A DNA stretch of 28,677 bases from the IMG/VR virus record IMGVR_UViG_3300025873_000030, positions 1 to 28,677 of that record; one strand, 5' to 3'. Position 1 is the first letter of the stretch. Each line of letters starts with the position of its first letter. Below, in pieces: positions 5,044 through 26,005 of the stretch. The notes beneath the pieces are model-generated. The model worked only from the letters and a program-made list of their open reading frames with translations, did no database searches and had not been told where the DNA came from. The DNA comes from a virus. The translations under genes were made by a program, and so were the position numbers.

Positions 5044-6257
5044 AAAAGTCACTAGAATTAAAAGAGACTCGCTCAAGCTTAGTAGAAACTTTGGAAGGTA
5101 TTAAAAATACTGCAGAAGGAGAATCTAGAAACTTAAACGAGGCTGAATCAACAGAAGTAGATAACACATTAGATAAAATCGATGCGTTAGATGTAGAAAT
5201 TAAAAGAGCAGAAAGAATGGAAAACGAAATGAGAGTAGCAGCATCAGTAGGTGGTGCAACTGTATCTACAACAGTAGATAAAGACAAAAGATCGTACTCA
5301 TTCCAAGATGCAATGAAGCAAGCAGTAAATGGAAAATTAGAAGGATTAGTAAAAGAAATGGACCAGGAAGCTAGAAACGAAACACCACACCAAACTTATA
5401 GAGGTGTAGCAATTCCACATTCTATCTTAAACCAAAGAGCAGCAGTAACGACTGCAGCATCTAGCCCATTAGAAGTACAATCTTTCACTGACCAATTAGA
5501 AGCGAACTTAGTACTTGCAAGTGCAGGAGCTAATTTTTACTCAGGTGTAGCTGACCAAAAATTTCCTGTAGTTTCTGATATCGCATCAAGCTGGGTAGCA
5601 GAAGACCCTGGTACTGATGTATCAGCTGCTGGTGCAACAACAAGTATCACATTGACTCCTAAAAAATTAATCTCAGTAGTTGATTTATCTAAAGAAGCAA
5701 TGACTCAAAACGCAGGACTAGAAGCAGCAATCCGTAGAAATATGGCAGCTAACATCGCTTCTACTTGGGAAAAAGCATTACTAAGTGCAAATGATATCTC
5801 TGGAGCTCCAACATCTATCTTTAAAGATGTAACGGCATCATCAACAGGTGTACTTGCTGCAGATTTTATTGACTTAGAAGCTACAGTATTAGGAAACGAT
5901 GTACCATTGGAAGGTGCGAGAATGGGGTATATATTTGATAAAGATGCTTATTCTTCTATTAGAAGTTTATTACAAACTACTGGTGTAGCAGCATTATGGA
6001 ATCCAGAAACTAAAGAGTTAAACAACTACTATGGTTTCTTTTCAACTAATGTAGGAAATGGAGGTACAGCTAATAAAGCACACGCTATGTTTGGAGATTT
6101 CTCTAAAGTACACTTAGCTCAATTCGGTGGATTGGATTTATTATATGACCCATACACTAAGTCAAGACAAGGACTAGGAACGCTTATCGCTACTACATTA
6201 GTAGATGGAGATGCAGTGCAAAATGACAAAGCATTTGCTACTTTAGTTGAGGCATAA
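5040..6257 (+). CDS. Major capsid protein (HK97 gp5 family)
   Basis: A 405-residue protein. The first roughly 75-100 residues form a charged helical region (ELKETRSSLVETLEGI, then DKIDALDVEIKRAERMENEM), typical of the HK97 delta/scaffold domain removed by the prohead protease. The remainder has the HK97-fold pattern, with VVSDIASSWVAEDP, KKLISVVDLSKEAM and RQGLGTLIATTLVDG. Codon use differs from many neighbours (more TTA, GGT and GCT), consistent with selection for high expression. The gene overlaps the protease gene by four bases and is followed by a strong terminator hairpin. Confidence 0.95.
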   Translation: MKKSLELKETRSSLVETLEGIKNTAEGESRNLNEAESTEVDNTLDKIDALDVEIKRAERMENEMRVAASVGGATVSTTVDKDKRSYSFQDAMKQAVNGKLEGLVKEMDQEARNETPHQTYRGVAIPHSILNQRAAVTTAASSPLEVQSFTDQLEANLVLASAGANFYSGVADQKFPVVSDIASSWVAEDPGTDVSAAGATTSITLTPKKLISVVDLSKEAMTQNAGLEAAIRRNMAANIASTWEKALLSANDISGAPTSIFKDVTASSTGVLAADFIDLEATVLGNDVPLEGARMGYIFDKDAYSSIRSLLQTTGVAALWNPETKELNNYYGFFSTNVGNGGTANKAHAMFGDFSKVHLAQFGGLDLLYDPYTKSRQGLGTLIATTLVDGDAVQNDKAFATLVEA

Positions 6258-6276
6258 TTATTAAAAAAAATGGTCG

Positions 6277-6314
6277 AAACTTGGGGAATTTTTCCCCTTG
6301 TTTCTTCCTTTTTT
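6277..6314 (+). terminator. Strong terminator after the capsid gene
   Basis: Stem GGGGAA (6283-6288) and TTCCCC (6292-6297) with a three-base T loop is extended by AAAC/GTTT across a 2x2 internal loop. A T-rich tract (6304-6314) follows. This fits an intrinsic terminator, perhaps partial, since the downstream genes belong to the same module. Confidence 0.75.
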
Positions 6315-6318
6315 AGAT

Positions 6319-6345
6319 AATAGCCAAATCAATTTTAAGGCTATT
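6319..6345 (+). repeat. Second hairpin (AATAGCC/GGCTATT) after the capsid gene
   Basis: A perfect 7-bp stem, 6319-6325 with 6339-6345, and a 13-base loop. It includes the 12-base sequence shared with the portal leader. The rest of the gap, 6346-6494, is A+T-rich with no recognisable promoter; it may be a 5' leader for the neck genes. Confidence 0.45.
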
Positions 6346-6494
6346 TAGAGGCCTATGAGGGAACTTTGCTAGTGTTAATAAGTATTAGTATTAAACATTT
6401 GAGATATTAGAATACAAGCAAATCACTAGGTTAAGAAAAAACGGAAAAAACGAGATAAGTTAATACAAGATTTTAAAAGAAAAGTTAGTCAAAA

Positions 6495-7064
6495 ATGAAA
6501 TATTTACAAATCGAATCACACCATAATACACAAATAGTAAGCACGGCTGACTTGAAGGAACATCTGCGTATAACTTTTAGTGCAGATGATAATTATATAG
6601 CAGATTTAGAAAAAGCAGCAGTGCAAAGAATCGAAGAATTCTGTAATATTTTTTTATTAGAAACTGAATTAAATCAATATGGTTTTAATATTAACGATGT
6701 AGAAATATTATATAAAAGCCCAATTTTATCAACAAACACTCCTTTACTTTCAGTTAATCAAAGTGCATCGTGGGTGGCTCAAACTGGGGTGGAATTTATC
6801 ACAAAGGCAAAACCACCTAGAATGTATATCAACAACGCTACCATAGATACACCAGATAGCGATATAACGCAAAAATATAAAGTAAATTATAAAGTAGGAT
6901 ATGATAGCTCGAGCGACATACCAGATCCATTAATACAATGCATTAAAATAATGGTGGCTGATATGTACGAAAATAGACAATCAGTAATAGTAGGAAAAAT
7001 AGTATCAGAAATACCAAGGACAGCTCAATACCTTATGAACCCTTATAAAATACAAACTTTATGA
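6495..7064 (+). CDS. Head-tail connector (HK97 gp6-like)
   Basis: A 189-residue protein with the head-tail connector pattern. An N-terminal TADLKEHLRI and DDNYIADLEKAAVQRIEEFC helical region is followed by strands, then KVNYKVGYD and a C-terminal helix LIQCIKIMVADMYENR. Connectors of this family form a ring beneath the portal. Position directly after the capsid gene, and ATGA overlap with the next neck gene, agree. The gene has its own 237-base upstream gap, unusual in this compact genome. Confidence 0.85.
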   Translation: MKYLQIESHHNTQIVSTADLKEHLRITFSADDNYIADLEKAAVQRIEEFCNIFLLETELNQYGFNINDVEILYKSPILSTNTPLLSVNQSASWVAQTGVEFITKAKPPRMYINNATIDTPDSDITQKYKVNYKVGYDSSSDIPDPLIQCIKIMVADMYENRQSVIVGKIVSEIPRTAQYLMNPYKIQTL

Positions 7065-7426
7065 TTTCAGTAGGAAGCCTAGACACACCAGTAGAAGTAG
7101 AACAGTGTAGATTTACACAAAATGCAAACTATGGTGGGATACAAGATGAGGTATGGTCTCAAGCAACTACGAGCAGGTTCATATGGGCTCATATAGTATA
7201 TAGAGGTGGAAAAGAAGGAGAAGAAGCAGAGCAAAAAGTAGGCCAACAAAAAGTAGATTTTTATATGAGATATGATGAAACAGTAGATAAGATAGAGCCT
7301 GGATGGAGAATAGCAGTAGAAAAAGATAATAGAGACTTAAAATACTTTTATATAGAATCAGTAGCAGAAGTAGATGGAAGACACAAAATAAATAAAGTAA
7401 CTGCAATAGCAAAAGATAATAACTAA
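7061..7426 (+). CDS. Head closure / head-tail adaptor (SPP1 gp16-like family)
   Basis: A 121-residue beta-rich protein. The pattern is typical of the phage head-tail joining family: an N-terminal VEVEQ strand, a DEVWSQATTSRFIWAHI segment, a central charged GGKEGEEAEQKVG loop, DFYMRYD and GWRIAVEKDNR. It closes the head after packaging and forms the neck with gp6-like and tail-completion proteins. It overlaps the previous gene as ATGA and the next by one base. Confidence 0.8.
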   Translation: MISVGSLDTPVEVEQCRFTQNANYGGIQDEVWSQATTSRFIWAHIVYRGGKEGEEAEQKVGQQKVDFYMRYDETVDKIEPGWRIAVEKDNRDLKYFYIESVAEVDGRHKINKVTAIAKDNN

Positions 7427-7896
7427 TGAATTTAGGAACTATAAATGCAGGCACAGTACTAGGGAATAAAGAACTCCAAGCAGCGATGCGTAAAATACCC
7501 TATGCAGTTAAAAAAAATAAATTCTTTATGGCTGTGTTTAAACAAGCAGCTAAACCAATTATACAATCAGCAAGAGCTGGAATAAGCAACAAAGATGGAG
7601 ACCTTAAAAGAAGTATAAAAGCATTTAGCACAAAAGCAAGTAGAAAACTGCCAGCTTTATATGTAGGACCAAAAGCAACAGGAGGCTCGGCTAAAAAGAA
7701 TGAACAAAGAGGTGGTGGATATTATGGAGCGATAGTTGAATACGGAAGTGCTACAGCACAACCTCATCCATTTATGAGACCAGCCTGGGACAAATCGCAA
7801 AGCAGTGCAGGTTCAATACTCCTAGCAGGAAGCCAAGCAATAGTAGAAAAAGTACTACAAAGAGAAACTAAAGGATTAAAAAGACTTTATAAATAA
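7426..7896 (+). CDS. HK97 gp10-like neck/tail protein
   Basis: A 156-residue basic protein with the hallmarks of the gp10-like family: an ARAGISNKDGDLKRSIKAF segment, LYVGPKATGG, and a GGYYGAIVEYGSATAQPHPFMRPAWD motif region near the C-terminus. Members take part in tail completion or the head-tail joint. Length is typical. It begins at the previous stop (TAATG) and its own stop overlaps the next start by one base. Confidence 0.85.
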   Translation: MNLGTINAGTVLGNKELQAAMRKIPYAVKKNKFFMAVFKQAAKPIIQSARAGISNKDGDLKRSIKAFSTKASRKLPALYVGPKATGGSAKKNEQRGGGYYGAIVEYGSATAQPHPFMRPAWDKSQSSAGSILLAGSQAIVEKVLQRETKGLKRLYK

Positions 7897-9071
7897 TGAG
7901 AGCAGGAGCAATTATATATCCGTTACTAACGAATTATGCTGACCTTACAGCTTTAGTGCCATCGACTAAAATATTCGCTCTACGAGGCGAACAACCAACA
8001 GGAGGCCCATACATAGTATATAGAGAAATAAGCTCTGTACCATTAGACACGAAAGGAGACAGCATAAGTACAGGAGCAGACCCAAGATTAAAACAAAGGT
8101 CAATACTAGACACATCAAGAGTACAAATATCAGTATTTGCCGAAACATACCTGGAAGTAGAAAACATAGCAGTAGAAGTGAGAAATGCACTAGATAGAGA
8201 ATGGGGAGCAGTACCAACACCATACGATAATGATGTATCACTAGACTCCTGTGTTTATGAATCAGCTGTGGATGACTACGATGATGCATATGGAGGTCGA
8301 GGAATTTATATAAAGCACTTAGACTTTAAACTTAGAATAAATATACTACCACCACCAGCACCGTGGTCGAATCTTTATTCTATATTATTTGATGGAGTAG
8401 ATGATTATCTAAACCTTGGAGATAGCGATGTTTTCACATTCGGAAATAATCTAACAGACATCCCTTTTACTTTTTCATTATGGGCAAAAATAAATGAAGG
8501 AAGCCAAGCTCCACTATTTGCAAAATCAACATCACTAGCAAAAGAATATCACATACTAACAAGCTCCTCCGATTTATTAAGAATAAGACTATATGATAGC
8601 AGCACAGGAGGTTATATCCAAAGCCAAATGGATGCAGCAATCAGCACATCTGGATGGCATAATTATATTTTTACTTATGATGGATCTGGTAGTCAAACAG
8701 GAATAAAAATATATGTGGATGCAATCCTACCTGGACAAACACAATCTGTGAGTGGAAGCTATGTAGCAATGTGGAATACACCTACAGAATTAAGAATAGC
8801 CACATCCGAACAGAATAGTTTTTATTTAGATGGAAACATTGATGAGTTTGCATTATTTAATATAGAATTAACATCAACTCAAGTAACAGCAATTTATAAC
8901 AGTGGAACACCAACTGACCTATCAGCACATACAGGTCTAACAGGTTACTGGAGAATGGGAGACCCAACAGGGACATCTGCATACCCTTACATCCAAGACT
9001 TAAGCACAAACAACAATCAAGGAACAATGACTAATATGATAAGCTCGGACATAACAACGGATGTCCCTTAA
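7896..9071 (+). CDS. Tail completion protein (DUF3168-like) fused to a LamG lectin-like domain
   Basis: A 391-residue, two-part protein. Residues 1-150 resemble the tail completion/DUF3168 family: PLLTNYADLTALV, GPYIVYREIS, VQISVFAETYLEVENIAVEVRNALD and YIKHLDFKLRI. A Pro-rich linker, LPPPAPW (about 150-156), leads to residues about 160-385, a LamG/concanavalin-like beta-sandwich. Signature segments there are LFDGVDDYLNLG, FTFSLWAKI, WHNYIFTYDGSG, DGNIDEFALFNIELT and GYWRMGD. The fusion would place a carbohydrate- or surface-binding module at the neck or tail completion ring, like a collar whisker. Reading frame and codon use are continuous across the junction. Confidence 0.82.
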   Translation: MRAGAIIYPLLTNYADLTALVPSTKIFALRGEQPTGGPYIVYREISSVPLDTKGDSISTGADPRLKQRSILDTSRVQISVFAETYLEVENIAVEVRNALDREWGAVPTPYDNDVSLDSCVYESAVDDYDDAYGGRGIYIKHLDFKLRINILPPPAPWSNLYSILFDGVDDYLNLGDSDVFTFGNNLTDIPFTFSLWAKINEGSQAPLFAKSTSLAKEYHILTSSSDLLRIRLYDSSTGGYIQSQMDAAISTSGWHNYIFTYDGSGSQTGIKIYVDAILPGQTQSVSGSYVAMWNTPTELRIATSEQNSFYLDGNIDEFALFNIELTSTQVTAIYNSGTPTDLSAHTGLTGYWRMGDPTGTSAYPYIQDLSTNNNQGTMTNMISSDITTDVP

Positions 9072-9075
9072 TAAT

Positions 9076-9297
9076 ATGAAATATTGTATACTGCCAACAT
9101 TAGAAATCGATAATATAAACTTTGCAAAAGTGGTGGAGTTTAGAGATACGCTAAGATATAGCATTGATGGTTCAGAATTCATATTAAAATATGAAGGAAC
9201 AAAACCAGAAACACTTAAAGACTACACATCTTTAGATCATAAAGTAATAATAGAATTTATTAACAACCCAGCAAATGGCTGGATAAATATAGAATAA
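9076..9297 (+). CDS. Small unknown tail-region protein
   Basis: A 73-residue beta-rich protein (78 if the in-frame ATG at 9061 is used). The 9076 start is preferred because it lies just after the previous stop and begins with a hydrophobic MKYCILPTLEI strand. The segment RYSIDGSEFILKYEG suggests a small beta fold. No family is recognised. It overlaps the next gene by one base, so it is part of the tail operon. Confidence 0.6.
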   Translation: MKYCILPTLEIDNINFAKVVEFRDTLRYSIDGSEFILKYEGTKPETLKDYTSLDHKVIIEFINNPANGWINIE

Positions 9298-9485: not shown

Positions 9486-9816
9486 TCAAACTATAATAGA
9501 AGGAGGGGACACCCCAACGCTCACTACATTAGAAGCGACATCTAATACTTTCTCAAATGGAGGAACAGAATTTATTATGATTAAAAATGATAGTGGCTCA
9601 AGTGTGACTGTGACTGTAACGGCTGTAACAACCTCAGTAGAAAATCCTATATATGGAGACTTAGAAAAAAACGATGCTACAACTGTAGTAGCAGATGGAA
9701 ATATAGCATTTATGGGGACATTTCCTGTCACAGCATATAACGGCACAGATGGAATCTGCACATTTACTGTTTCAGCACACGCAAGCGTTCGTGTGGGAAT
9801 TTTAACAATAGGATAA
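9469..9816 (+). CDS. Beta-rich structural protein, possible decoration or minor tail protein
   Basis: A 115-residue protein rich in Thr, Val, Ser and Gly, with alternating strands such as GGTEFIMIKNDSGSSVTVTV and FTVSAHASVRVGILTIG. This is an immunoglobulin-like or jelly-roll pattern seen in small virion surface proteins. No signal peptide or cysteines. The start overlaps the previous gene and the end shares one base with the first tail tube gene, so it belongs to the late structural set. Assignment as a virion protein is inference from composition and location. Confidence 0.6.
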   Translation: MALINSQTIIEGGDTPTLTTLEATSNTFSNGGTEFIMIKNDSGSSVTVTVTAVTTSVENPIYGDLEKNDATTVVADGNIAFMGTFPVTAYNGTDGICTFTVSAHASVRVGILTIG

Positions 9817-10247
9817 TGGCTTTAAATGGAATAGTTAATGGAACGGAATACCTACTCTACATAGGAGCATCAACTGTATTATTCGGCACAGCTGTCAGCT
9901 ATAGTGTAGAAATGGATACCAAAGATATATCTGCTAGGGAAACTTACAACTGGAAGAAAATACTACCAACAACTAGAAAATGGTCTATGGAGTTTGAAGG
10001 AAAACTAGCGTATAGATTAGTAGATGGAAGCACCCCAACAGGATATACATTTGATGAAATAATAACAGAATTTTATACAGGACAAAATAAGCAGTTTATA
10101 ATGGTAACACCACTACTCTCTGGAGCTAGAGCCTGGGGTGGTTTTGCCTTTTTATCATCAGCATCGATAGAAGGACCAAATGAAGACAATACAACATTTA
10201 ATCTAAGTTTTACTGGAATAAATGAATTAGTACAATCAACAACATAA
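9816..10247 (+). CDS. Tail tube protein, copy 1 (TP901-1-like family)
   Basis: A 143-residue protein with the major tail protein pattern. It starts with GIVNGTEYLLYIG, has KWSMEFEGKLAY in the middle and ends with FLSSASIEGPNEDNTTFNLSFTG.NELVQ. Tail tube proteins stack as hexameric rings around the tape measure. It is clearly a paralogue of the next gene: same length, same NGT start motif, EG motif and PNED/ELVQ ending. It could be a minor tube, terminator or initiator ring; which copy builds most of the tail cannot be told from sequence alone. Confidence 0.8.
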   Translation: MALNGIVNGTEYLLYIGASTVLFGTAVSYSVEMDTKDISARETYNWKKILPTTRKWSMEFEGKLAYRLVDGSTPTGYTFDEIITEFYTGQNKQFIMVTPLLSGARAWGGFAFLSSASIEGPNEDNTTFNLSFTGINELVQSTT

Positions 10248-10310: not shown

Positions 10311-10742
10311 ATGGCTACAGATGGAGTAATCAACGGTACAAAATTTGGAGTTTATGTAGCAGGCACTAAAGTTGCTTACGCTACCTCAGCTTCGATATCA
10401 ATGAATCACAACCTCAGAGACACAAGCACAAAAGACTCTGGTGGATGGAGAGACCAACTAGAAGGACAAAGAGACTGGGAAGTTTCAGTAGAAGGAATGT
10501 TAATATTTACAAACTTAGATGGATCGGCTATAGCAGGCCTGACAGCTAATGAGTTATACAGCACATACATCTACGCTAGAACACAATTTGAATTGAAATT
10601 CTCTACAGAAGTAACAGGAGACATCAAGTGGACTGGTCAAGCATTCCTAACATCTTTAAGTGCAGACACACCAAATGAAGACTCGAGTACTTGGAGTGGA
10701 TCGTTCAGTGGAACTGGAGAATTAGTACAAGCAGCATCATAA
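10311..10742 (+). CDS. Tail tube protein, copy 2 (TP901-1-like family; likely the major copy)
   Basis: A 143-residue paralogue of the preceding gene, with GVINGTKFGVYVAG, DWEVSVEGMLIF, FLTSLSADTPNEDSSTWSGSF and GTGELVQ. Unlike most genes here it has its own 63-base A-rich leader and is followed by a strong hairpin, features shared only with highly expressed genes such as the capsid gene. I therefore favour it as the major tail tube protein, but this is inference. Confidence 0.83.
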   Translation: MATDGVINGTKFGVYVAGTKVAYATSASISMNHNLRDTSTKDSGGWRDQLEGQRDWEVSVEGMLIFTNLDGSAIAGLTANELYSTYIYARTQFELKFSTEVTGDIKWTGQAFLTSLSADTPNEDSSTWSGSFSGTGELVQAAS

Positions 10743-11522: not shown

Positions 11523-14172
11523 AAAAGCCCTCGCTTCCTTAAATGTAGTAATCAACGCAGTTACATCTCCACTTTTTAAAGGATTAGCAATAGCCCAAAA
11601 ACGAATGGTAGCATTCGGTACGAAAATGAAAGCTATAGGTAGAAGTATATCTATGAGCTTCACTCTACCATTTGCAATGATAGGAGTAGCTGGAGCTAAA
11701 ATGGCTATTGATTTCGAAAAGAATATGACCAAGATAAATACCCTGGTCGGTATTTCAGCGAAGGAAGTCAATATAATGGGAAAAGAGGTTATGAAACTAT
11801 CTGGCGAAACAGCACAAGCACCAGCTGACCTAGCCGAGGGTTTATTCTTTTTAACATCTGCAGGACTTAAAGGTGCGAATGCAATGTCAACCCTGGAGCA
11901 AGTGTCAAAAGGTGTAGCGATAGGACTAGGGGAACAAGCTGACCTTGCTAAAGTAGCTGCAGCTGCTCAGAACGCATATGGGGAGGAAAATCTATCAGCT
12001 TCAAAAGCCCTGGATATTTTCGGAGGAATGGTAAAGACTGGTATGTTTGAAGCATCAGACCTGGCTGGAGTACTTGGAACGCAACTCGGACTAGCTGCTA
12101 ATTTAAATATCTCATTTGAAGAACTCGGTGCGATGATTTCTACATACACCAAAACTACTGGAGATGCTAACGCAGCTACCACAGGACTGGGTGGAATTAT
12201 GATGTCATTCGCTAAAATTACTCCAAAGCAGGAAGCAGCCCTAGAAAGTGTAGGAATGTCAGTAGATGGATTAAGGGAAAAGATAGGAAGCCAAGGATTA
12301 CAGTCGACATTAATAGAAATGCAAGAGGCATTTGCAACTAACAATGTCGACCTATCAGAATTTTTTAGTAAAAGCCAAGCATTAAAAGGGGTGCTAGGTG
12401 TACTTGGAAATCAAACCGAAACATACAAAGCTGTACTTGATGATTTACACCAATCTACTGGGTTTGTAGATGAAGGCTTTGAAACAGTCAGCCAAACTGC
12501 AGGGTTTAAAATGCAGAAGTCTTTTAATAATTTAAAGAACGCTGCAATGGAACTGGGTGCGATGTTGATGCCAGTATTTGCTGCACTAGTTGATGGAGCT
12601 ACAAAAATAGCGAAAGGGTTTACATCTTTAGATGGAGGAACTAAAAAACTAATAGCTGGAGCAGCAGCTGTATTAGCTTTATCTGGACCATTAATGACAC
12701 TGGCTGGTGGTTTAGTTTCAGCTTTAGGAATGGTACTATCTCCGATAGGATTAGTAGTAGTAGCTTTAGGTGCAATTTTTTATGTAGTTTATAATAACTG
12801 GGGAACGGTAAAAGGATATCTGGTGGAATTTGTAAATTATTTTATAACGCTTTATAATGAAAGTACACTTTTCAGAGGAGCAATTCAATATGTCATTTTT
12901 ACTTTAAAAACAGTATTAGCTTATGCAATATTTTGGGGTAAAAGTGTAGTTGATATTTTTGTAGCGATGAAGAATTCAGCAATGAAAATACTGGGTGGAA
13001 TAGGAGATATTATACTGGGAATATTTACATTTGATAAATCAAAAATAGCTGATGGGTTTAAAAAAGCAACATCTGGAATAGGAGATACTATAGCCGAAGC
13101 ATTCGATGGAATATCTGAAAATGCTAAAGAGTTTGGAGATAAAACGGCTCAAAACTTTGCTGATGGAGTAGAAGCGACAATGAATGCTAGACCCCTAGAA
13201 ATGATAACAGAAGAAGACATCCAAGGGACAGTAGATAATGTGAGCAACTGGTTTACAGATAAACTAGGAAAAGTAAAAGATAAACTAAAAGGCTTTATGG
13301 GTGGCTCTAGTTTACTCGTACCAGAAGGAGGAGGTGGAGGAGGTGGAGGAGAAGGAGGAGGTGGAGGTGGAGGTGGAGATGATGGCACTGCAGCATTAAA
13401 TAAATCGATAGCAAAGAAAAAGTCAGCATTACAGGAATACCTAGAATGGGCAAAAGAAGGATATGGAGAATTAGCTGATAAAGTGGGTGAAGTATGGGGA
13501 AACATAAGCCAAGTAGCTGGAGCTGCTCTATCTGGAATAGGTAATATGTTTGCTGCAGAACACGAAAAACAAACGGCTATACTAGACAACGAACAAACAG
13601 CAAGCGATGAAAGGTTCTCAAAAGATATGGAGCGTGAACTCTTAGGAGTGGAGAATTCTAAAATGACTGAAGAACAAAAAAAATCAGCAATAAAAAAGAT
13701 AGAAGACAAATATGCCCAAAAGAAGGCACAAGCAGATGAAAAGATAGATGCTAAAAGAAAAGCCCTAGAACTTAAACAAGCGAAGCGAGACAAAGCAATG
13801 AAAATAGCAAGTGCAATAATGGGAACGGCACAAGCAATAGTAAATGCTTTAGCACAAGGAGGACCAATAGCAGGACCAATTCTAGCAGGATTAATGGCTG
13901 GACTTGGAGCAGCTCAAATAGCTACGATAGCATCTACACCACTACCTATGGCCTCTGGAGGAATTGTATACGGACCAACCAACGCATTAGTAGGAGAATA
14001 TGCAGGAGCTCAGAATGACCCAGAAGTAGTAGCACCACTATCCAAATTAAAAAATATGCTAGGAAACCAACAGCAAATGAATGTAGCATTAAATGTAGGT
14101 GGAGTATTAAAAGGCGAAGACATATTCCTAGCAAATGAAGACACAGGAACAAATAGACAAAGATATATATAA
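11515..14172 (+). CDS. Tape measure protein (TP901 core family)
   Basis: An 885-residue protein setting tail length. Residues about 65-330 match the TP901 tape measure core: DFEKNMTKINTLVGIS, QAPADLAEGLFFLTSAGL, AAAAQNAYG and TTGLGGIMMSFAKITP. Hydrophobic segments (about 380-430) are probably membrane-interacting at DNA ejection. A glycine tract (about 605-623) is followed by a charged helix (KIEDKYAQKKAQADEKID) and the common C-terminal motif MASGGIVYGPTNALVGEYAG. Residue count predicts a tail of roughly 130 nm by the usual 1.5 angstroms per residue rule. It overlaps the chaperone by eight bases and the next gene by one. Confidence 0.93.
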   Translation: MPKKALASLNVVINAVTSPLFKGLAIAQKRMVAFGTKMKAIGRSISMSFTLPFAMIGVAGAKMAIDFEKNMTKINTLVGISAKEVNIMGKEVMKLSGETAQAPADLAEGLFFLTSAGLKGANAMSTLEQVSKGVAIGLGEQADLAKVAAAAQNAYGEENLSASKALDIFGGMVKTGMFEASDLAGVLGTQLGLAANLNISFEELGAMISTYTKTTGDANAATTGLGGIMMSFAKITPKQEAALESVGMSVDGLREKIGSQGLQSTLIEMQEAFATNNVDLSEFFSKSQALKGVLGVLGNQTETYKAVLDDLHQSTGFVDEGFETVSQTAGFKMQKSFNNLKNAAMELGAMLMPVFAALVDGATKIAKGFTSLDGGTKKLIAGAAAVLALSGPLMTLAGGLVSALGMVLSPIGLVVVALGAIFYVVYNNWGTVKGYLVEFVNYFITLYNESTLFRGAIQYVIFTLKTVLAYAIFWGKSVVDIFVAMKNSAMKILGGIGDIILGIFTFDKSKIADGFKKATSGIGDTIAEAFDGISENAKEFGDKTAQNFADGVEATMNARPLEMITEEDIQGTVDNVSNWFTDKLGKVKDKLKGFMGGSSLLVPEGGGGGGGGEGGGGGGGGDDGTAALNKSIAKKKSALQEYLEWAKEGYGELADKVGEVWGNISQVAGAALSGIGNMFAAEHEKQTAILDNEQTASDERFSKDMERELLGVENSKMTEEQKKSAIKKIEDKYAQKKAQADEKIDAKRKALELKQAKRDKAMKIASAIMGTAQAIVNALAQGGPIAGPILAGLMAGLGAAQIATIASTPLPMASGGIVYGPTNALVGEYAGAQNDPEVVAPLSKLKNMLGNQQQMNVALNVGGVLKGEDIFLANEDTGTNRQRYI
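13327..13378 (+). repeat. GGA/GGT trinucleotide repeat encoding a glycine tract
   Basis: A run of GGA and GGT codons, interrupted once by GAA, encodes a nearly uninterrupted poly-glycine stretch in the tape measure protein. Such a repeat is prone to slippage. The opposite strand of this region shows only a spurious Pro-rich reading frame. Confidence 0.85.
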
Positions 14173-17100
14173 TGGCATTTAACAGAACTTATTATTTTGA
14201 TATAAAATCTCTAAAGGGTATGCACTACCGACTCGAAATTTATGATGATATAGCTAGTGGAACTTATATGGATAAAGAGGGAACGCTAGGTGGAGGTGGA
14301 ATAAAAATAAAATACGGAAGTGAAGGGTCTAAAATGTTTGCACCTTTGAAACCTTCTACATTGACATTAGAGATGATGGTCACTGACACGAATTCTTCAA
14401 ATTATATAAAAGAATTAAAAACAAATAGACAGGAGCGAGATGTTTATGTAGCCCTTTATAGACAATGGGTAAGTGGCACAGACAATCCAACAGCAGGACC
14501 AATCTGGGGTGGGTATTTATTGATGGATTTGTCAGCTGACCCAGATGAATCAATGCCGTATAACATAAAACTAAAATGCATCGATGGACTAGCATCGCTT
14601 AAACATTATGATTTTATACCAGACACCCTGGACCAAACACCAGAAGGACTATATGATGTAGAGGACACCTACATAGCACCAGATATGGTGCTGTATAGAA
14701 GTTTTAAAAATTTAATATCTATCTGTTTAAGTAAAAGTGGGTATTTTTCAACTCCCCAAGGGAACACAGCTGAACCACAAATCGTAACAGCCGTGAATTG
14801 GTATAATGGAGAAATGGCAAACACCACAGTAGACCCACTAGCAACGACAAGGTGTAAACCTAATATATTTTATGAAACGGAATCGCAATCCGATGATACA
14901 ATAAAATACAAAGCAATGAACTGCTACGATGTTATAGTGGCGATTTGCAAAGCCTGGGGAATGCGATGTTTTCTCTGGAAAAATAAATGGTATTTTGTGC
15001 AAATAAATCAATGGGAAGTGGACCAATCTGGGAATTATTCAAACCCAGATGATATTGATATTTATAAATATAATATGGCTGGAGTTTTTCAATCCACCAG
15101 CGACACTATAGAAAACTGGTGGAGTACTTATCAATTATATGTAGATAATACACAGGCAGCTCCAAATGTAAAAAATTATAAATTAGCAGGAGGACAATAC
15201 GGAACGCTTCCAGCGTTCAAAAAAGTGACTGTAGACTTTTTAAATGTGGATAATTTCAACTCATTTACAGCATTCCCACCAATACCACTAACAAGCTCAA
15301 TAGGACCTCCAATATCTACATCACAAAATTACGAATTTACATCGCTGGGGAATTTTACATTTGATGGAACAACAGATCAAGCATTTTATCAAAGAATTTA
15401 TATAGCTTTAACAAACAACTCAATGGAAGCTGGGGACTTTTCAACCGAATGGTGTATGGTAGCTCGGGAAACAGGTACAGGAACAAATACAATTAATACA
15501 GAACCATATGTAAATGGCTGGGAATATTTTTTAAATTTCGATTATATTAATAATGTCCACGAATGGGTTATAACCGTAGCCTTAACTTGGGCTGCCTGGC
15601 CTTGTATGGGAACATACCCAATAGTACCAGGAAACCAAACAATAGACCTCACTACAGGAACACCCTACCAATTCCCTACATTTCCTGCTTCAATTTTTAC
15701 AGCTGGAGACTGGGAGATAGGATATTATGTAAGGTCTACATTAACAGGAACTACAACTAACTGGAGTGGCCACGGAAGGTTTAATCCAACTGTAGCTAAT
15801 CCAAATACAAACCCTTGGGATTATGATATCGCATACCAAAATGTAGCATACGGCTATGGGATAGGTTCTTCTGAATTCGCACCAATTATAAGTGGAGCTG
15901 TGGGGTCTTACTCAACTTTGACATCGCTAGTGCAAACAGGAGATGACACTGCAAATGAAACAGTAAAAGATGTATTATTTGGCGATGGCTTCGGAGGAAG
16001 GGGAACGGTTCAGATTTACACAGGAACAGTGTGGAAGAACTCAGATGCATCTGGAATCTGGGGAAAAGATACATTAACAGGAAACAACTCAATGGCTCAA
16101 CAATTAGCTGAGGACATATTCTCAGCACAATCTAAAAGCCTTGTAGAATTTAATGTATCAACAACAATAAACCCTACTCATTCTATATATTACCACGATG
16201 GCTCAACAAACAAGCCACAATTTATGTGTCCATTTACTAAAATTGTAACACCATCAGATATACAAAGCAACACTCCACTAAGAAAATATATAATGCATAC
16301 AGGAGAATGGAATCCAATACAGGAAACCTGGAAGTGGAAACTTTACGAGCAGATGCAAAGCCTAGGCTCTACAACAACTACAACTACAACAACTGGTGGA
16401 TTAAATAGTGGAAACACAGGAGGAGCAGGAACACCAGCACCTGGAGGTGGTTCATCAGCAAAAATGGGAAACCCAGCTGCAAACAATACACTAAATACTA
16501 AGTTTTTACAAGACCAACAAATAGCACCAATAACAACGATAACAGAAGAACAATACATAGTAGTAACTGGCGAGACAGGAACATACGAACAAACCATAAC
16601 ATCGCTCAAAGTTAATGCATTAGAAGAAGTTATAAGTGAAGGAGATAAATTTATATTACAAACACAATCTGTAGATACATCAAATGCTCCAGGAAATAGA
16701 ATAGAATTTGAAGCATCATCCAGAGCAACCCCTGGAGCAACAACAATACTAGTAACCTCTCAAACAATATATCAAAATATTTTAATAGGAGACACGATAA
16801 CATTTAATACCAGCAACCTATTAAGCCAATACCAAAACAAGACCGAAGGAACAATAGCAGGCTTTGATATAGATGATAACGGAATAACAAAAGGTGGAGT
16901 AGAAATAACAGGCTGGCTAGACTCAGATACAATGGCTGGAGCAACAGCTAACAATGTACCTACAGCCGAAAGTGTGAAAGCCTATGTGGATGCATCAAGT
17001 GGAGGAGGAGGAACAGCTCTCTCGGTTTTCTCAATGCTAACTTGTAACACTACAACTATAACATCAGCAACAAATGGAGAAGGAAGTGCAGAAGTTATGA

Positions 17101-23411: not shown

Positions 23412-23788
23412 TAAAGAACATAGCAATAGAGGAACTAAGAACGCAAGCAGTAGATATAATGAGCAAAGCGTACCTGGAGCTAGGACAAAACCCTTCAGAG
23501 GACACGATTGTGAGTTTTGCATACATTCTAGCCGATGACTTAAAGCGAGACTTTCATAATATGGAACTTAAGGATATATGGGAGTCTTTCAGAAACGGAG
23601 TGCGAGAAACCACAGAATACCACATAACAGTAAAAACATATTACAAATGGATAAAGAGCCACCGACAAATAATATGGGACAATGAAACAGTGGAGGAACA
23701 TCTGCAAGATAAGAGACTGCAATACAGAAGCAGGAAGGGAACAGGAATGAAGCGATTAAATATAAACAGCACAAAACAAATAGGATGA
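23408..23788 (+). CDS. Unknown helical protein of the replication cluster
   Basis: A 126-residue protein with a helical pattern (IEELRTQAVDIMSKAYLELGQ, FAYILADDLKRDFHNMELKDIWESFRNGVRE, KTYYKWIKSHR) and a basic C-terminus. Proteins of this style follow initiator genes in Bacteroidota phages as I recall them; a helicase-loader role would suit the place but nothing in the sequence proves it. Coupled by ATGA on both sides. Confidence 0.6.
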   Translation: MIKNIAIEELRTQAVDIMSKAYLELGQNPSEDTIVSFAYILADDLKRDFHNMELKDIWESFRNGVRETTEYHITVKTYYKWIKSHRQIIWDNETVEEHLQDKRLQYRSRKGTGMKRLNINSTKQIG

Positions 23789-24891
23789 AAGTAGGAACAT
23801 TTTTTAGTGGGGTGGGTAGCCCAGAGCAAGCCTTAAATAATTTAGGTATTGATCACGAGATAGAATTTGCTTGCGATATAGATAAATACGCAAAACAAAC
23901 ATATTTAAAAAACTTTAATACTAAACAATTTTATACTGATATTACAACACTAGATATGAAGAATTTGTCTTATGTAGATTTATTAGTATTTGGATTTCCT
24001 TGCCAAGCATTTAGCCTAGCAGGAAAAAGGGGTGGCTTTGAAGACACTAGAGGAACATTATTTTATGATGCATTGAGATATTTAAAAGAACACAGGCCTA
24101 GGTATTTTATAGCTGAAAATGTAAAAGGTTTAGTTTCACACGATAAAGGAAAAACATTTCAAACTATAATAGATTGTTTAGCATCAACTGTAAATACACA
24201 AATGTCTATTATGCCTTTTGATAATTTAGGATATCATATACATTACAAAGTATTAAACACTAAAAACTATGGAATACCACAAAACCGAGAACGAATTTTT
24301 ATAGTAGGAATAAGAGATGAAGCAGATAATAACTTTACATTTCCAAAAGAATTTCCTTTAGAATTAAAACTGAAAGATATTTTACAAGACAATCCAAATA
24401 GTAAATACTTTAATTTGAGTAATTCTCAACAACAAATGATTAATGATGAAAACGATATAAAAAGATATATTAATTCTGACATAATAGATAAATTTAATGA
24501 AGGAGACTGTGCAGATATATCATTCCCAAATGGATATAATAAAGCTAACAGAGTATTTAAGGTAGATGATAAGTATTTTTTAAAAGAAGAAACAGTTAAG
24601 AAACTAAATGAATACAATCAAAGAAATAAAGATAATGGAAATGGATTTAGAGCTAAATTTCACAATCCAGAAACTGATTTAATGAGTGCATTGAAAATAG
24701 GTGGAGCAGGAGCAGATGATTTAATAAAACAAGATAAAATTAGAAGGCTAACACCAATAGAATGTGAAAGACTACAAGGTTTTCCTGACAATCACACCGA
24801 AGGGGTAAGCGACACTCAAAGATACAAACAGATGGGAAATACAATAACAGTAAATGTAATGATGGAACTCTTTAAAAAACTCTTGAAATGA
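23785..24891 (+). CDS. DNA (cytosine-5-)-methyltransferase, full-length
   Basis: A 368-residue enzyme with the ordered C5 methyltransferase motifs. These are motif I FFSGVGS (6-12), motif IV GFPCQ with catalytic Cys73, motif VI ENV (111-113), motif VIII QNRERIFIVG (166-175), a variable target-recognition region (about 180-310), motif IX RRLTPIECERLQGFP and motif X QMGNTITVNV. No partner restriction enzyme gene is adjacent, so it is probably an orphan, anti-restriction modification enzyme. T-richer codon use than surrounding genes hints at recent transfer. ATGA overlaps at both ends. Confidence 0.95.
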   Translation: MKVGTFFSGVGSPEQALNNLGIDHEIEFACDIDKYAKQTYLKNFNTKQFYTDITTLDMKNLSYVDLLVFGFPCQAFSLAGKRGGFEDTRGTLFYDALRYLKEHRPRYFIAENVKGLVSHDKGKTFQTIIDCLASTVNTQMSIMPFDNLGYHIHYKVLNTKNYGIPQNRERIFIVGIRDEADNNFTFPKEFPLELKLKDILQDNPNSKYFNLSNSQQQMINDENDIKRYINSDIIDKFNEGDCADISFPNGYNKANRVFKVDDKYFLKEETVKKLNEYNQRNKDNGNGFRAKFHNPETDLMSALKIGGAGADDLIKQDKIRRLTPIECERLQGFPDNHTEGVSDTQRYKQMGNTITVNVMMELFKKLLK

Positions 24892-25124
24892 GCAAGCAAA
24901 ATAAAAAACTTATAGAAAACCTAAAAAAATTAGATAAAATGATGTACTATTGTAAATGTGGAAACACAAAGCACCTACCAAAAGCAACGATAATATATAT
25001 AGAAGGCAAGGGGTGGGTTACTAAAGAAGCAAAGTGTACAAAATGCCCAGAGTATATGGACAGCAAACCAACCGAAGGAATGCCAGGAATAATAAGAACC
25101 GAACCAACACTCACAAAGAAATGA
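24888..25124 (+). CDS. Small zinc-ribbon-like protein
   Basis: A 78-residue basic protein with CKCG and CTKC about 30 residues apart, a likely four-cysteine zinc site. It lies between two methyltransferase genes with ATGA overlaps on both sides. Function unknown; a nucleic-acid-binding or accessory role is possible. Confidence 0.6.
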   Translation: MSKQNKKLIENLKKLDKMMYYCKCGNTKHLPKATIIYIEGKGWVTKEAKCTKCPEYMDSKPTEGMPGIIRTEPTLTKK

Positions 25125-26005
25125 AAGAAGAAGATTTGTTTAATAATAACCTAAATAAAAAAATTGAAAAAATAGATTTATTTGGTAATATTACAATAGA
25201 AAAATCTATTAAAAAAAGAATTGGTTTTTTACCTACTTCTGTTTGGCGACCTAATTGGGAAATAACTAAAAGATTAAAAAAATTAGTAGGAGATAGCTCA
25301 CAAACAAGAGAAAGTTTAAATAGTAATAGAAGTGATAGAAGAAATGGTGTGAATAATGGAAAACCAAGTATTTTTAACCCTAATTTATGTCAAATGATAT
25401 TATCAGCATATTGTAATGAAAATAGCACAATTTATGACCCATTTGCAGGTGGTGGTACAAGGGCAATTATTTCATCTATGTTTGGTCATAAATATTATGG
25501 TGTTGAAATTAGAAAAGAGGAAGTTGATAGAATAAATACAAAAAAAAAGGAATTAGATTTAGATTTTACTGTTATAAAAGGTGACGCTTTAAATAAAAAC
25601 TTTGATGGTATAAAATTTAATTTTTCTTTGACTTGCCCACCATATTATGACCTTGAACAATATTCCAATTTAGATAATGATTTAAGTAATCAAAAAGATT
25701 ATAATGGGTTTTTAGAAATGCTTTCAAAATCTATTAAAAGAGTTTATGATTGTTTAGAAGATGGTAGTATTTCTGTTTGGGTTGTTGGTAATTTTAGAAA
25801 TAAGTTTGGTGCTTTAGAACATTTAAACGGAGATTTAATTAGAATTGGAAAAGAAAATGGATTTATATTATTAGATGAAGTAATTTATGAGGGTGCATCT
25901 AAAGTAGCGTTAACAAGGTGCTCTAAATTTGAGAAAAACAGAAAAAGTATAAGAATGCACGAATACATAGTGATATTTAAAAAGACAAATAAAAAACTAA
26001 ACTAA
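25121..26005 (+). CDS. DNA amino-methyltransferase (N4-cytosine or N6-adenine)
   Basis: A 294-residue SAM-dependent enzyme. DPFAGGGTR (106-114) is the SAM-binding motif and TCPPYYD (171-177) the catalytic motif; the SAM motif comes before the catalytic one. RMHEYIVIFKK near the end is typical of phage methyltransferases of this group. TCPPY does not distinguish N4-cytosine from N6-adenine targets. The ATG at 25121 is chosen because it overlaps the previous stop as ATGA and the longer frame back to 25034 is inside the zinc-ribbon gene. The gene is markedly T-rich (TTT, ATT, GGT codons) compared with neighbours, the strongest sign of recent acquisition in the window. Confidence 0.88.
   Translation: MKEEDLFNNNLNKKIEKIDLFGNITIEKSIKKRIGFLPTSVWRPNWEITKRLKKLVGDSSQTRESLNSNRSDRRNGVNNGKPSIFNPNLCQMILSAYCNENSTIYDPFAGGGTRAIISSMFGHKYYGVEIRKEEVDRINTKKKELDLDFTVIKGDALNKNFDGIKFNFSLTCPPYYDLEQYSNLDNDLSNQKDYNGFLEMLSKSIKRVYDCLEDGSISVWVVGNFRNKFGALEHLNGDLIRIGKENGFILLDEVIYEGASKVALTRCSKFEKNRKSIRMHEYIVIFKKTNKKLN

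Follow-up and report, generated by a model that had tools for sequence, protein, structure and literature searches.

The window considered here is the whole stretch of 28,677 nucleotides (positions 1 to 28,677) of the IMG/VR virus record IMGVR_UViG_3300025873_000030. It carries four neck genes in the order Ad1-Hc1-Ne1-Tc1, an order classed as Type 1 by Lopes et al. (PMC4362835), and two tail tube proteins are encoded downstream. The last of the four occupies 7896-9071, the place at which the preliminary description had located it, and its frame runs unbroken for 391 aa. This gene is the only recognisable tail terminator of the phage and bears a LamG lectin-like domain at its C-terminus. The features of the region are the following:

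6495..7064, plus strand: head-tail adaptor Ad1 (PF05135, 1e-9; PHROG 442/40)
7061..7426, plus strand: head-closure protein Hc1, bare in the window (PF05521, 1.6e-7)
7426..7896, plus strand: Neck1 (Ne1) protein (PHROG 5, 2.8e-11)
7896..8345, plus strand: tail terminator domain (Tc1 / gp17-like), about residues 1-150, assigned from PF11367 and PHROG 347; bare homologues stop here
8346..8369, plus strand: junction or linker ILPPPAPW, not conserved in the alignment; DNA homology to L011 stops at 8341
8370..9068, plus strand: LamG beta-sandwich (PF13385, 2e-18; structural model and Foldseek)
8394-8885, plus strand: Pfam core of LamG (PF13385)
8886-9068, plus strand: conserved C-terminal extension of LamG, GYWRMGD...TMTNM, up to the end of the ORF
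9061..9297, plus strand: small companion ORF of 78 aa, from a LamG-associated family that occurs behind LamG ORFs

The two tail tube genes (9816-10247 and 10311-10742) are adjacent paralogues of 143 aa each that match PHROG 1407, and the tail may contain two tube proteins or one paralogue that has become specialised.

Profile searches with each half of the fusion protein bear out the two-part architecture claimed in the preliminary description. Residues 1-153 alone match Tail_completion_gp17 (PF11367, 3e-8) and the last 233 residues alone match Laminin_G_3 (PF13385, 2e-18), in both cases above the curated Pfam cut-off. The full 391-aa protein matches PHROG 347, 'tail terminator' (3e-38), and this match, together with PF11367 and the Ad1-Hc1-Ne1-Tc1 order, agrees with the earlier identification as a neck/tail-completion protein. 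The PHROG 347 profile has 394 positions and spans terminator plus LamG, and the terminator-LamG architecture is already implicit in it. A single-chain AlphaFold2 model built from 20 relatives (mean pLDDT 78, pTM 0.58) combines an alpha/beta domain at the N-terminus with a C-terminal half made of beta strands only. Foldseek matches in the PDB comprise LamG, pentraxin and CBM40 sandwiches (E 1e-9 to 1e-6), headed by 4dqa, a putative carbohydrate-binding protein, and the sandwich fold anticipated for the C-terminal half is predicted, with the correction that its conserved strands extend to about residue 380. The 50 Foldseek matches listed cover the LamG half and give no support to the terminator half, and no sequence match was found in the PDB; this half is assigned as a terminator from sequence profiles and gene order. 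The same profile and gene order place it in the family of the Tc1 terminators (lambda gpU, SPP1 gp17, R4C gp18), although, unlike plain members of that family, the protein is extended at its C-terminus by a LamG of about 230 residues. The Pro-rich linker described earlier is present as a short ILPPPAP, but it is not conserved, and relatives have, for example, NRINIDNAW. The motif GYWRMGD...NNGTMTNM (8886-9068) follows the core in the window, whereas a similar motif, YW.F/DSSGN, precedes the core in many LamG_3 proteins; for this reason, the LamG domain may be circularly permuted.

Terminator-based searches recovered numerous stand-alone terminators, 133-156 aa long, which stop where LamG would start, and near relatives with an 86% identical terminator likewise stop after the terminator domain, without LamG. 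Since so many close relatives lack it, LamG is not essential. No frame of the sequence covered in bare-terminator loci contains LamG, nor was any found in seven bare-neck records of 18-30 kb, which may be fragments. Six fused records, including the window and possibly also fragments, contain exactly one LamG each, at the neck. At the DNA level, the window aligns with L011 as far as 8341, where the terminator domain ends, and the alignment resumes at 9296, where the small ORF ends; L011 lacks LamG together with the small ORF as a single block. The window record holds one recognisable terminator and one LamG and, therefore, no separate bare terminator would be available to build the ring.

The small ORF starts either at ATG 9061, which gives 78 aa, or at ATG 9076, which agrees with most relatives, and 9061-9297 has no match in Pfam or PHROG. 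Its structural model (pLDDT 68) leaves the fold uncertain, and the Foldseek matches are mostly unnamed viral proteins. The family to which it belongs is about 75 aa long, is characterised by the motif Y.I...ID.I.F..V.E....LRY.LDG..FIVK..G..P and has more than 100 relatives in viral contigs, behind LamG genes of very different phages. The alignment search gave 107 relatives; 80 were retained, and 78 of their loci include an ORF upstream on the same contig, which contains LamG in every case (78/78), as tested with a profile built from window-type fusions only. These 78 loci were reached via the small ORF and, therefore, the fair test is the set found through the terminator. Without the small ORF as query, 58 distinct fused terminators with an intact frame were found, and, where enough downstream sequence was available, the small ORF lies behind 56 of 58 fused and none of 28 bare terminators, counts that refer to related and not to independent sequences. 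Independent supported branches provide five contrasts, practically all of which point the same way, a number too small for p = 0.05. These data show that LamG and the small ORF constitute a cassette whose two parts are almost always gained or lost together. L119 and L158 possess LamG and lack the small ORF, which is therefore not obligatory.

The distribution of the fusion implies repeated change, since a tree of 100 terminators needs six transitions between the fused and the bare state, five of them forced by supported branches. Moreover, the two halves have different histories. Between the window and L070 the terminators are 41% and the LamG domains 61% identical, whereas between the window and L005 (= L039), which belongs to its own terminator clade, the values are 75% and 34%; the window LamG shows about 34% identity to most LamGs on that clade. 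In the LamG tree, from which fibre-type domains were left out because motif trimming missed them, the window LamG clusters with that of L070 (support 98/98), whose terminator is distant; long branches make the positions of L045, L064, L066, L105 and L112 unsure. A LamG that is close to one on a distant terminator and remote from those on its own clade has therefore been swapped between terminators. Strict co-transfer of LamG and the small ORF was also considered and is weakened both by L119 and L158 and by the window itself, whose LamG resembles that of L070 while its small ORF is nearer to its own clade (69% identity to L039 and 47% to L070). In 116 of 120 fused pairs of the window type, conservation is lower in LamG than in the terminator half (mean 45% vs. 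68%), and this faster divergence fits a changing ligand pressure, although relaxed constraint would look alike.

As a separate observation on the head genes, the major capsid protein of L010 (2430-3653) is far more diverged from the window group than the adjoining portal, and this disparity between neighbouring sequences suggests recombination inside the head module.

The preliminary description was right in placing LamG on the terminator, but missed that LamG belongs to a cassette subject to gain and loss and that it has other carriers. In L059-L063, LamG and the small ORF are found on the head-closure protein (PF05521 + PF13385), and in L062, where LamG sits on this protein, the terminator is bare. 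The DNA of L115 is 91% identical to that of L062, and there the head-closure protein is bare, the small ORF is absent and the terminator is bare. Further carriers comprise two other types of terminator, proteins with fibre-like N-termini (MANKK...) and one stand-alone LamG protein. In L031 (= L066), a terminator of 652 aa (6001-7959) bears two tandem LamG domains that are very unlike each other. Among cultured marine phages, the cyanophage Synechococcus phage S-SKS1 encodes a four-LamG protein followed by the small ORF, and in Flavobacterium phage immuto the small ORF comes after a LamG-containing ORF that lies next to genes annotated as tail fibre. Both resemble the window in the succession of LamG and a small-ORF homologue but differ from it in that their LamG is not on a neck protein, that of immuto lying amid tail-fibre or structural annotations.

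The best explanation, and probably the correct one, is that a modular LamG adhesin cassette is displayed at the neck, where it would reversibly hold host glycans. Each subunit of the terminator, whose ring closes off the tail tube, would contribute one LamG, which would result in a lectin-like ring around the neck, presumably exposed outward; if the ring is hexameric like other terminators, for instance the one of R4C (PMC10276861), it would hold six copies. Such a ring would behave as a low-affinity, fast-evolving adhesin with a putative glycan ligand, keeping the virion reversibly attached to surface glycans of the host until the tail tip engages, and the product of the small ORF might aid the folding or assembly of LamG. 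The cassette is gained, lost and exchanged, residing on the terminator here and on head-closure or fibre-like proteins elsewhere. Not all LamG folds bind glycans. In phage T5, the terminator polymerised aberrantly when it was tagged at its C-terminus (PMC11784142); therefore, C-terminal display does not come without cost, and the way in which the fused C-terminus exits from the ring matters. A more general reading, advanced only tentatively, is that of a two-part plug-in adhesin moved among unrelated ring and fibre proteins, for which the neck might be a standard lectin mount and the companion a chaperone or bound subunit of LamG.

Other roles of the ring have to be weighed against this one. 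The two neck carriers of LamG, the terminator and the head-closure protein, are joint proteins, and Staphylococcus phage 812 possesses neck decoration proteins (PMC12886913), so that the ring could reinforce the head-tail joint or anchor another part of the virion with no glycan binding; this is nevertheless unlikely, since near relatives assemble with bare terminators, the same cassette also occurs on fibre-like proteins and both the divergence and the swapping of LamG far exceed those of the protein that bears it, unlike a part with a fixed interface. More doubtful still is the attachment to free polysaccharide, particles or the surfaces of organisms other than the bacterial host, which the preliminary description had proposed and to which the likeness of the fold to pentraxins and CBM40 lends some weight, given that no sequence feature speaks in its favour and that the cassette is shared with phage proteins of the fibre type, which usually serve to bind the host. 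The patchy occurrence of LamG, its repeated gain or loss and the many close relatives devoid of it would also be expected of a neutral or selfish mobile domain that neck proteins tolerate at their C-terminus with no benefit for the virion; this is more improbable again, considering that the frame is unbroken in all 58 distinct fused terminators, that fold-bearing residues and the C-terminal motif are conserved and that a useless extra domain would not stay intact for long on a ring protein that the phage cannot do without. Finally, a sequencing or assembly error that joined two genes, an origin already contemplated in the preliminary description and brought to mind by the bare terminators of near relatives, is rejected as having a negligible probability, because the frame is open across the fusion in many intact copies from independent metagenome contigs, bare relatives possess no separate LamG gene in the sequence covered and the PHROG 347 profile itself represents terminator plus LamG.

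A reversible LamG adhesin at the neck would have its closest precedent in the lactococcal 936 phages, which carry carbohydrate-binding modules on the neck passage structure (NPS), evolved Dit and the extended major tail protein, and in which one NPS module bound host cells (PMC6669499). As in these phages, a module of carbohydrate-binding type, with putative binding in the present case, is placed on a virion structural protein, including at the neck. However, the 936 NPS is a neck protein in its own right, ~500-900 aa long, with a conserved N-terminus of ~180 aa and modules of BppA-like, pectin/alginate-type or esterase-type folds (PMC6669499), whereas the window protein, which is no separate neck protein of that size, has LamG fused to a 150-aa terminator within 391 aa and is accompanied by the companion ORF. 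Larger terminators with extra domains are also known, e.g., those making sheath contacts in myophages (PMC11784142). In the capsid turret of HFTV1 (PMC12494034) and the baseplate of R4C (PMC10276861), carbohydrate-binding domains have been proposed to make the first reversible contact with the host; in the window, the LamG domain, which would bind glycans in a similar way, is instead on the terminator ring, and in other phages on the head-closure protein. Neck-mounted adhesion modules are, then, already known. No description of a LamG-terminator fusion was found in the literature, a weak absence as most subscription journals lay beyond the search, and, as far as can be tested, a mobile cassette of LamG and companion on a terminator or head-closure ring is undescribed.

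This phage group is uncultured and probably marine. The cultured relatives of its TerL and MCP are only distant, and no relatives that could lead to the host through a prophage were found in bacterial or archaeal genomes. Shine-Dalgarno-like motifs of at least four bases precede 3 of 38 starts, a rate estimated to be near chance for the base composition, and the leaders are A/T-rich. Bacteroidota naturally lack Shine-Dalgarno sequences (PMC6847099) and, given their near absence here, the host is probably a member of this phylum. Three DNA methyltransferase genes are present in this small phage genome, namely a PHROG 757-like one (21739-22368) and, at 23785-24891 and 25034-26005, genes of the C5-cytosine and N6/N4 types. 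The tail-tip ORF of 1126 aa (14172-17552) has no match in Pfam or PHROG; it ends in a possible receptor-binding head and is the sole other candidate adhesin noticed.

Adhesion domains are usually sought on fibres or at the tail tip, and here an assembly ring protein bears a domain of adhesion type. The natural pairs with and without LamG on two neck proteins offer a ready comparison for the function of a neck adhesin. Moreover, the small-ORF family can be used as a marker for such modules in unannotated viromes.
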